A DNA stretch of 64,000 bases, taken from assembly GCF_947077765.1 (NCBI RefSeq), contig NZ_CAMTTF010000003.1, positions 496,001 to 560,000 of the forward strand. Reading direction: 5' to 3'. A program made the translations under genes and the position numbers. This DNA is from Salinibacter grassmerensis (GTDB lineage: Bacteria; Bacteroidota; Rhodothermia; Rhodothermales; Salinibacteraceae). The notes under the pieces were generated by a model. It was not told where the DNA came from. It ran no database searches and worked only from the letters and a program-made list of their open reading frames with translations. Positions within the stretch are counted from its first letter, which is position 1. Every line of letters begins with the position of its first letter. This document shows, one piece after another, positions 14,222-17,174 of the stretch.

Positions 14222-14824
14222 ATGTCTTCCGACGATTCCGATGCCCCGCTCAACCGCGTGGCCCGCTTCACGTCTTTCGCCACGGTGGGGACCCTGGGCC
14301 TCACGCAGGACCTGACCCACGCCGTGATTGAGAGCATCGGCGATATGGAAGGGGCCGACCCGGAGCTCGTGGCCGAGGAGACGCTCTGCCTCATCGCTAC
14401 GGCCACCGCACGGGCCGCCGAGATCGGGCTCGAGGAGGAGCCCGACCGGGCCCCAACCATTATCGAAACGCTCCTCGATCTCCCCTTCACGTACCGGAAC
14501 TACCTCCTTGGGAAGGCGATGGTGGCCGAAGAGCGCCCGGAGCTCTCAGAAGTGGCCGAGGAGGTTCGCGCCCGTCTCGAGGAGAAGCGCGCCTTTTACA
14601 CGACTCATTTGCCGGGCGGCCAATTTCCGGGGCCGCACGCGCTCGGGGACAAGATGGAGCTGTGGATGGGGCGTGTAAGCCCCCCAAAACTTCCAGAAAC
14701 CCCTCAGGAACGACTGGACGCGCTCGGCCTGGTAGACCCGACGGTGGCCCACCTCAAACTCGTGCTCGCGTACGGGCGTCGGGGCGTGCCGCCCCTCGGG
14801 TCCGCAGCCGAGTCGTCCGAGTGA
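14222..14824 (+). CDS. Protein of unknown function
   Basis: I do not recognise this 200-residue acidic protein. It is predicted to be mostly helical, with Glu/Ala-rich segments (about 45-75 and 105-130) and no signal peptide or membrane helix. The C-terminal third has a Pro/Gly-rich patch (HLPGGQFPGPHALGDK) and the segment MELWMGRVSPPKLPE. It sits 48 bp after moaC on the same strand and converges on the PspA operon, so it is likely co-transcribed with moaC. A cofactor-related role would be guesswork. The start ATG is close behind moaC and codon use matches its neighbours, so I believe it is a real gene. Confidence 0.7.
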   Translation: MSSDDSDAPLNRVARFTSFATVGTLGLTQDLTHAVIESIGDMEGADPELVAEETLCLIATATARAAEIGLEEEPDRAPTIIETLLDLPFTYRNYLLGKAMVAEERPELSEVAEEVRARLEEKRAFYTTHLPGGQFPGPHALGDKMELWMGRVSPPKLPETPQERLDALGLVDPTVAHLKLVLAYGRRGVPPLGSAAESSE

Positions 14825-14855: not shown

Positions 14856-15806
14856 CTACTCTCGGACTCGGGACTGAGACGACCGCTCCTGGGTCTTATC
14901 CTCGAGGTCAGACACGGACCCGTCATCGCCGTCGGGCACATCGAGAGCCCCCTCCGTGGCCGCGTCCAACTCTGCGTCGAGCGCATCTAGGTCTTCCGCC
15001 ATCTCGTCGTCGAGATAGTCGGTGGGAGCGGCGAATACGTCTTCGATCTCACGGATGGAGCTTTGGGTCTCCTCCACCTCCTGCAGCAGGGTGTCGAGCT
15101 GTGTCGTCACCTCTTCCGGGTTTTGCAGTGTCCAGGACTGCTCGTGGATGTACCGCACCACGTCCTCGATGGTGCTAAGCTGCGCGCCAATGATCTCCAG
15201 GTTTTCGTGGGCCTTGCGGAAGCGTGCCAGCCGGCGCTCCAACACCTTCAGCCGGCGTTGCTTGACGGCCCGCACCCGTTCGGCGTCGTCGGCCATGTCT
15301 TTCTTCAGCGCGTCGATGGACTCGAGAATTTGCGCCTCCGTGGCGCTGTCCATGAAGTCCCGGTACCGCTCCCGCTGGTGAAGCAGGTCGAGGTACGAGT
15401 CCAGAAGGCCGTCGATCTTTTCGACGTGGCTCCCCAAGATGCCCTGGGAGGCGTAGCTGAGCTTCTGGTAGTTTGCCTGGATTTGCTCCTTGAGCTTCCG
15501 AAGCTTGGCGTAGCGACGCTGGCTCTGATTGCGGAGCTGGCTGAAAATCTCGCGCTGGGACGGCGCCTGGTGTTGTTCGGACCGCTTCTCGGCGCGGATG
15601 TACCGCTGAAACCGGTCGTGCCGCGGCATCACCCCTAGGTAGAGGAGCTCCGCTCCGCCCCCCAGCAGGAGGAGGAGTTCGGGAAGCCAGGCGGGGAAGA
15701 TGCCGACCAGCCCGAGGCCCGCCGCCACAGCCACGACCGTGATCAAAAACACCAGATTCCAGGTGTTGAAGAGGGCCTCTTTCGTGTAATTGATGTCGTC
15801 GTCCAT
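14856..15806 (-). CDS. Membrane-anchored coiled-coil protein of the PspA operon
   Basis: This 316-residue protein has two hydrophobic helices near the N-terminus (about 14-33 and 37-55: LVFLITVVAVAAGLGLVGIF, then LPELLLLLGGGAELLYLGV). A long charged coiled coil follows (about 60-260), then an acidic C-terminus ending in a Ser/Arg-rich tail. I do not recognise a named family. It is the third gene of an apparent operon (pspA, small coiled-coil gene, this gene) with a 19-bp gap upstream. I placed the start at the internal ATG giving MDDDINYTKEALF, because the longer frame has a low-complexity Arg/Thr-rich extension overlapping the upstream gene. It may tether or cooperate with the PspA-like protein at the inner membrane; this is inferred from context. 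Confidence 0.75.
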   Translation of the reverse strand: MDDDINYTKEALFNTWNLVFLITVVAVAAGLGLVGIFPAWLPELLLLLGGGAELLYLGVMPRHDRFQRYIRAEKRSEQHQAPSQREIFSQLRNQSQRRYAKLRKLKEQIQANYQKLSYASQGILGSHVEKIDGLLDSYLDLLHQRERYRDFMDSATEAQILESIDALKKDMADDAERVRAVKQRRLKVLERRLARFRKAHENLEIIGAQLSTIEDVVRYIHEQSWTLQNPEEVTTQLDTLLQEVEETQSSIREIEDVFAAPTDYLDDEMAEDLDALDAELDAATEGALDVPDGDDGSVSDLEDKTQERSSQSRVRE

Positions 15807-15825
15807 GACAATGGGATTATTCGGG

Positions 15826-16350
15826 CTACGAAGCGTCGTCGGCGTGGAGGTCGCCCATGCGGCCAATGGTCTTGTCGGGCCCCTCCGGATGCGGATCGTC
15901 CGCCTCCGCTGCCTCTTCTGCCCCCGAATCAGACGATTCGTTGGTACCAGGCGCCGCACCCGGACGGGCAGACGTCTCCGCCTCTTCCGCCTTCATCCGA
16001 CGGATGAGCTGCTCGGCGCGCTCGTCACGAAGGGCCTCTTCGGCCTCGCGGAGCTCCGCATCCTCCCCCCACTCGTCGTCGAGGGCCACCTCGAAGCGGG
16101 CCTCCCGCTCCGCAACCGCCCCTCGCAACCGGTCCACGAGCGACTCGGTCTCGGCCAGCAGGCGCCGGGCGCCCTGCTTCATGCGCCGCACGACTCCCTG
16201 CACCTCGCCCCGCTGCTTCAACTGTTCAAGGGTCGTCTGGAGCCGTTTTTTGGCCCGCAGGTGCCGCTTTTCGGTCTCCTTCAGCCGCTGGAATTCTTCG
16301 TCGGTCATGGCTCTATCGGACGGCGGATTGTGCATGCTGAGCGAAGGCAT
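15826..16350 (-). CDS. Small coiled-coil protein with C-terminal KTIG tail, PspA operon
   Basis: This 174-residue soluble protein has a basic, strongly helical N-terminal half (LKETEKRHLRAKKRLQTTLE) and an acidic, Ala/Glu-rich, probably disordered C-terminal half. It ends with PDKTIGRMGDLHADDAS. The KTIG element closely matches the end of the PspA-like protein encoded just upstream (PSKTIGKQRNKSE). It lies 35 bp after pspA and 19 bp before the membrane coiled-coil gene. The start could also be the ATG at 16308 (MTDEEFQRL), which would leave a more typical gap. I know of no named family for it. A role as a PspA partner or regulator is inferred from the operon and the shared tail. Confidence 0.75.
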   Translation of the reverse strand: MPSLSMHNPPSDRAMTDEEFQRLKETEKRHLRAKKRLQTTLEQLKQRGEVQGVVRRMKQGARRLLAETESLVDRLRGAVAEREARFEVALDDEWGEDAELREAEEALRDERAEQLIRRMKAEEAETSARPGAAPGTNESSDSGAEEAAEADDPHPEGPDKTIGRMGDLHADDAS

Positions 16351-16385
16351 CCAGGCTCGTCATTCAATCGTCGGCCCAGGACGGA

Positions 16386-17174
16386 CTACTCTGACTTGTT
16401 GCGCTGCTTGCCGATGGTCTTCGACGGCTCTTCAATCTCTTCGTCCTCCGGTAGGTCGATCGTCTCCTCCTCCATGGACTCCTGGTCCAGCGTCTCCCCT
16501 CCTTCGGCCATGCCCATATCGGCCTTGAACTCATCGACGACCTGCTGGGCCCGCAGCTCCTCGGCGTCTTCCTCAATCTGCATGGCTTCGGTGTCCACCG
16601 AGTCGAGGGCCATTTCCATGCGGGCCTCGTTTTTGGCGGACTCTTCGTCCAGACGCCGGACCATCCCATCGTGGGTCTGGTCCAGCCCCGACACCTCGAA
16701 CTGCTCCATTGTATCGGCAATCTCGGCCTGCCACTGCGCCCGCTCGTGCTGGCGGAGGGCGTTTTTCGCCTCTTGAATCTTCTGCTCTTTCTCGCGCATG
16801 AAGGCCTTCTTGACCTTGAGGGCTTTCTCGTAGGCCCGCTCGGCGCCCTTGAGCTGCTCCTCCGTCCGCTCTAGGCTTTCTTTCTGGTCCTCCAGTCGCT
16901 TTGCGTACTTTTTGGCAATGTCTTCGCGGTCGGACTTGAGGGCGGTCTTGATGCGGTTGGAGAGCTGCTCGACCCGGTCTTTCGTCTTCTCGACCTCCTT
17001 CTCGAGCATGATCTTGTTCGCCTTCACCGTGGCGATGTTTTCGTTCATCTCCGGGACTTGATCGTTGAGCTCCCGGATGTTTTGTTCGAGAATCGTCCGC
17101 GGATCCTCCATCGCCGAAACGGCGCCGCCGAAGAGCGACTTTACTGCGCGCTTGAATCGGGACCAAATAGACAT
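16386..17174 (-). CDS. pspA: PspA/IM30 (Vipp1) family envelope-stress protein
   Basis: PspA/IM30 proteins are ESCRT-III-like polymers that bind and protect or remodel the inner membrane. The 262-residue protein begins with the membrane-binding amphipathic helix (MSIWSRFKRAVKSLFGGAV) and the conserved AMEDPRTILEQNIRELNDQ. A continuous coiled coil follows to about residue 195, then an acidic tail ending EEPSKTIGKQRNKSE. The tail is unusual compared with E. coli PspA, and its KTIG element recurs in the next gene. It is first in a three-gene operon. No PspB/PspC or sigma-54 enhancer-binding protein is adjacent, although rpoN lies about 21 kb away. Confidence 0.9.
   Translation of the reverse strand: MSIWSRFKRAVKSLFGGAVSAMEDPRTILEQNIRELNDQVPEMNENIATVKANKIMLEKEVEKTKDRVEQLSNRIKTALKSDREDIAKKYAKRLEDQKESLERTEEQLKGAERAYEKALKVKKAFMREKEQKIQEAKNALRQHERAQWQAEIADTMEQFEVSGLDQTHDGMVRRLDEESAKNEARMEMALDSVDTEAMQIEEDAEELRAQQVVDEFKADMGMAEGGETLDQESMEEETIDLPEDEEIEEPSKTIGKQRNKSE

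Follow-up and report, generated by a model that had tools for sequence, protein, structure and literature searches.

A class-wide PspA operon of Rhodothermia encodes a hairpin-less PspA paralogue with a shared KTIG tail motif and a constant membrane-anchored partner

The PspA operon of Salinibacter grassmerensis

Three consecutive minus-strand genes lie in the window, the whole 64,000-nt stretch of Salinibacter grassmerensis DNA analyzed here: they encode PspA (262 aa; 16386–17174), a protein hereafter called P2 (174 aa as called; 15826–16350), and a membrane-anchored coiled-coil protein, P3 (316 aa; 14856–15806). Gaps of 35 bp (PspA/P2) and 19 bp (P2/P3) separate them, and the open reading frames, strand, and spacing agree with an earlier sequence-only reading of this DNA. 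Because homologues of P2 open with MTPEEYQRLKE, its true start is probably codon 15, at about position 16308, which would widen the first gap to about 77 bp. A pyrimidine nucleoside phosphorylase gene adjoins the operon upstream; downstream, following MoaC, a 200-aa plus-strand open reading frame with no Pfam family (14222–14824) converges on P3. In many relatives (L005, L006, L008, L009, L016, and others) the gene 3′ of P3 resembles an enoyl-CoA hydratase (crotonase), an identity taken from the appearance of the sequence; this gene does not follow P3 in the window.

PspA is a membrane-repair protein and a bacterial cousin of ESCRT-III. The PspA of the window belongs over its whole length to the PspA/IM30 (Vipp1) family of the ESCRT-III superfamily (PF04012; 3e-21; 76.4 bits against a curated cut-off of 33.9), and the profile built from PspA of the window's class, Rhodothermia (hereafter, the class), aligns to solved Vipp1/PspA structures over residues 1–203, so that at the level of sequence helices 0 to 5 are all present. 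It is nevertheless a divergent, class-specific form: Pfam E-values for PspA of the class are about 1e-12 to 1e-22, compared with 1e-32 to 1e-55 for most other PspA of the phylum. As in the classical proteobacterial pspABC/F operon, a PspA effector is encoded together with a membrane partner; unlike in that operon, no pspB, pspC, or pspF adjoins pspA in the window, as the sequence-only reading had remarked, and the gene for a PspC protein lies on a different contig of the genome.

P3 matches no Pfam or NCBIfam family above cut-off. Its AlphaFold2 model comprises two transmembrane helices, predicted from secondary structure and hydrophobic sequence at residues 15–34 and 40–62 (15621–15764, minus strand), a bundle of helices, and an end modelled with low confidence. 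Comparisons with ESCRT-III proteins stayed short of significance, at E 0.9 for the Snf7 profile (below cut-off) and probability 0.51, E 0.45 for a Foldseek match of the model to CdvB; VIA-align Z scores of 8–12 are at a usual level for helical bundles. We rejected P3 as a relative of PspA or P2, with hhalign probabilities of only 5–16% and <1%. The P3 C-terminus carries a recurrent basic element at all loci (SRVRE, RVKE, TRTRE, or RRQRQRS; 14856–14880 in the window), weaker than the KTIG element described below. In one single-contig genome (G065; L016:1953–2836) a frameshift or a sequencing error breaks P3 into two reading frames that overlap, and the P3 search of genomes likewise returned two pieces there.

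P2 as a truncated PspA paralogue and the conservation of the trio

P2, too, matches no Pfam or NCBIfam family above cut-off, and it falls short of the PspA_IM30 threshold. Profile comparison with hhalign, however, aligns residues 128–255 of PspA with residues 29–157 of P2 at a probability of 99.3% (E 4.8e-20, tails included), and at 98.4% with a score of 88 once the tails are removed; the highest control scores were 34.7 in 30 heptad-block shuffles and 18 in column shuffles. The matches are reciprocal. The PspA profile finds the open reading frame after PspA in many genomes (E 1e-10 to 6e-4), beginning only at PspA positions ~112–142, and the P2 profile finds PspA in 14 of 14 genomes tested, 13 of which have no P2. 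Since the alignment scores lie far above those of the shuffles with or without the tails, and since the profile matches run in both directions, P2 is a truncated paralogue of PspA, which to judge from these profiles arose by duplication and truncation. The part homologous to PspA (15976–16266, minus strand) corresponds to PspA residues ~128–220, so that P2 consists of the end of helix 3, helices 4 and 5, an acidic linker, and a tail, and lacks both the helix 1–2 hairpin and the N-terminal membrane helix. AlphaFold2 models it as one long straight helix (residues 17–127) with a low-confidence tail, and a structure search with this single helix, an uninformative query, returned no matches. The sequence-only reading had treated PspA and P2 as unrelated proteins that share a terminal peptide, a view that the homology overturns; the profile searches it called for place P2 with the C-terminal half of PspA and leave P3 without a named family.

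The trio is a stable feature of the class. The PspA profile has matches in 227 of 244 class genomes. P3 turned up in every one of the 62 class genomes sampled, whereas the 185 genomes sampled from the rest of the phylum gave none, although many of them encode full PspA proteins. Of 198 genomes of the phylum searched with P2 alone, 41 gave homologues, and every one of these belongs to the class. We read the loci of 119 genomes (~80 genera, 21 families), in which PspA and P3 are direct or near neighbors and P2 stands between them in 105; gene order is kept in nearly all. Counts for PspA refer to 118 loci, leaving out L129, a short contig that carries P2 and P3 and no PspA and whose P2 had been scored as a PspA. 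P2 is absent from families f9 and f46, from most of f49, and from single genomes. P2 and P3 overlap by 1–4 bp in many relatives, which suggests translational coupling. A second set of loci from named organisms, partly overlapping with the first, agrees (Salinibacter, Salinivenus, Longimonas, Roseithermus, Rhodothermus, Fodinibius, Gracilimonas, Balneola, Rubrivirga). The genes thus stay together in relatives, and the proposal of a distinct envelope-stress module holds as regards a stable, class-wide unit lacking adjacent PspB, PspC, and PspF; a role in envelope stress is a putative one, suggested by the homology of PspA.

The KTIG tail motif

PspA ends in ...EEPSKTIGKQRNKSE (the ending also given as SKTIGKQRNKSE) and P2 in ...EGPDKTIGRMGDLHADDAS (also given as DKTIGRMGDLHADDAS), so that in each an acidic linker leads to a short element located by pattern search, KTIGK in PspA (16408–16421, minus strand) and KTIGR in P2 (15860–15873, minus strand). 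The near-identical element first noticed behind an acidic stretch is thus present, although it is not quite terminal: 7 residues follow KTIG in PspA and 11 follow it in P2. Both proteins retain it across ~80 genera of the class, the motif [KR][TS][ILVM]G lying no more than ~20 residues from the C-terminus in 99 of 118 class PspA and no more than ~60 from it in all 105 P2 homologues, which bears out the expectation that a meaningful tail would be conserved in orthologues. It is a feature of the class: none of 18 PspA from other Bacteroidota classes has it. PspA with two copies (KSVG and KTIG) occur in the Fodinibius group (L085, L086, L198, L205, L207, L210, L214).

A whole-genome search at the DNA level, made for the pattern KTIG[KR], returned 10 occurrences, among which only those of PspA and P2 are C-terminal tails of recognizable proteins. 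Because only these two of the ten are tails, and because the motif is kept across the class, the sharing is not a matter of chance; and since P2 is a paralogue of PspA, the shared tail stems from gene duplication rather than convergence. No further KTIG[KR] tail came out of this search. An FtsA-like protein (L031, G000:C1:657074) contains KTIGR in the context DEKTIGRDALAQII, 138 residues before its end and seemingly within a folded domain; we take this internal match as a coincidence.

When one position of the motif at a time is left free (counts that include L129), K or R occupies position 1 in 103/106 cases for PspA and 133/136 for P2, T or S occupies position 2 in 103/109 and 133/135, and G occupies position 4 in 103/121 and 133/146, whereas the flanking linker columns vary, with entropies of ~2.4–3.6 bits. 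This pattern supports strong constraint on the element, of the kind that would be expected of a docking motif, and suggests a tail that was inherited through the duplication and then kept by selection while the linker drifted. The near-exclusive exchange of T for S, directly preceded by a basic residue, also fits a different account, in which a Hanks-type kinase phosphorylates the tail on its Ser/Thr residue and thereby switches PspA/P2 assembly, with no constitutive docking. The genome holds one such kinase; its gene is unlinked to the operon, no FHA domain that could read a phosphothreonine is encoded in the genome, which also removes the candidate reader we had considered for the tail, and the K and G positions are as strict as the T/S, which is unexpected for a plain kinase site. 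We consider this account unlikely, if still worth weighing.

Some class PspA have lost the tail. Where PspA has no tail and P2 is present (families f3, f6, f44, and f45; for example Rubrivirga and Rubricoccaceae MAGs), P2 carries two copies of the motif, at 12 of 12 loci, and none of the loci read combines zero motifs on PspA with one on P2. Remnants of the motif such as ETTVGRDRTRTE and ATIGRTASDRDRTRTE persist in some of these PspA, an indication of loss. Mapped on a tree, these cases reduce to about two independent tail losses among P2 carriers, so that loss in PspA with doubling in P2 is a suggestive pattern for which a sign test cannot reach significance; the tree also shows 11 changes in the motif copy number of P2, none of them down to zero. 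Six genera of f49 keep P3 and have neither P2 nor the PspA tail. In f49 loci L114–L119, PspA without the KTIG tail often end in a His/Asn-rich sequence (for example HVNRNNHV, HVNKNNHV, HVNNNDHA), possibly a replacement tail.

These losses bear on the idea that the tail acts inside the polymer, its acidic linker and basic KTIG(K/R) folding onto the PspA helices as an autoinhibitory element or touching anionic lipid, with no separate receptor. The charge distribution is favorable (median net charge of PspA −5 before the motif and +3 after it), and contact of the tail with PspA itself would explain why it is retained in genomes that lack P2; pure electrostatics, however, would not hold the I/L/V and G positions so strictly, and the Rubrivirga-type arrangement, with no tail on PspA and two on P2, implies that PspA does not need a tail of its own. 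We regard it as rather doubtful. That the tail is a mere relic of the duplication that formed P2, without separate function, agrees with its inheritance by a paralogue and is very improbable, given that the linker drifted while K-T/S-I-G stayed and that P2 never fell to zero motifs through its repeated changes in number.

A candidate ESCRT-III/PspA membrane-remodelling module

If the tail is a docking motif, as we prefer to read it, what it binds must be present beyond the range of P2. The PspA tail is retained where P2 is missing (families f9 and f46, and locus L113), which excludes P2 as its sole receptor; the receptor is therefore something else that is present throughout. The only other partner seen throughout the class sample is P3, which makes it the leading and most economical candidate, with the six f49 genera that keep P3 without tail or P2 standing against it. 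A docking site in the P3 loop at residues 112–122 was considered and rejected: the loop differs in those six tail-less genera (permutation p 0.03), but it differs also in the tail-bearing f9 and L113. We infer that one docking partner may be common to both tails.

Taken together, the data make it fairly probable, in our judgment, that the operon encodes a class-specific ESCRT-III/PspA membrane-remodelling module, with the hairpin-less P2 as regulator, a short docking tail, and P3 as anchor and candidate receptor. PspA, which has the full set of membrane helix 0, helix 1–3 hairpin, and helices 4–5, would be expected to polymerize at the membrane's inner face. Vipp1 polymers cannot form without helix 5, which engages the hairpin of subunit j+3, and contact with the membrane is made by helix 0 (PMC8281802). 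P2 could offer a helix 5 to a PspA hairpin and accept none, as would befit a subunit that caps PspA polymers or regulates their length. Anchoring of the assembly would fall to P3, with its two transmembrane helices and cytosolic coiled coil, and the K-[T/S]-[I/L/V/M]-G-[K/R/N] tails of PspA and P2 would serve as docking motifs on disordered acidic tethers for one shared receptor.

Such docking would resemble that of ESCRT-III, in which MIM motifs are read by the MIT domains of Vps4 and CdvC. The likeness is that polymer-forming proteins carry, at the end of a flexible and acidic tail, a short conserved motif; we claim neither a sequence relation between MIM and KTIG nor an MIT or Vps4 partner for the latter. 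More tentatively, the module may hold a bacterial equivalent of the tail code of ESCRT-III, in which about two K-[TS]-[ILVM]-G motifs per module, one on each protein or two on P2 where PspA has lost its own, recruit PspA and P2 to a single receptor, probably P3, with P2 capping the polymers.

Within the literature searched, work on PspA bearing the names Salinibacter or Rhodothermota included no study of this module. We take the protein CBH24266.1 to be from Salinibacter ruber. Citing it, one sentence of Ravi et al. (2024; PMC11237479) mentions PspA/Snf7 neighborhoods of Bacteroidetes that hold an additional, third gene, whose coiled-coil product is reminiscent of PspA. The makeup is the same, PspA/Snf7 genes being joined by a third that encodes a coiled-coil protein, and theirs is probably this very trio; the passages concerned do not describe P2 as a truncated paralogue, and the main text has no KTIG. 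The partners, called uncharacterized in the sequence-only reading, are so with respect to function, a trio of this kind having been mentioned. Measured against that account, the hairpin-less paralogue and the class-wide tail motif are what appears new in a PspA/ESCRT-III module.

How PspA/Vipp1 polymers are recruited, limited, and disassembled without a known Vps4-like partner is a question on which this module bears. P2 is a natural hairpin-less fragment of PspA, on which helix-5 domain swapping and capping could be tested as it stands, and the tail amounts to a five-residue tag, for whose receptor a peptide could serve as bait. The genes form a compact operon that occurs in culturable genera, among them Salinibacter, Salinivenus, Fodinibius, and Gracilimonas.
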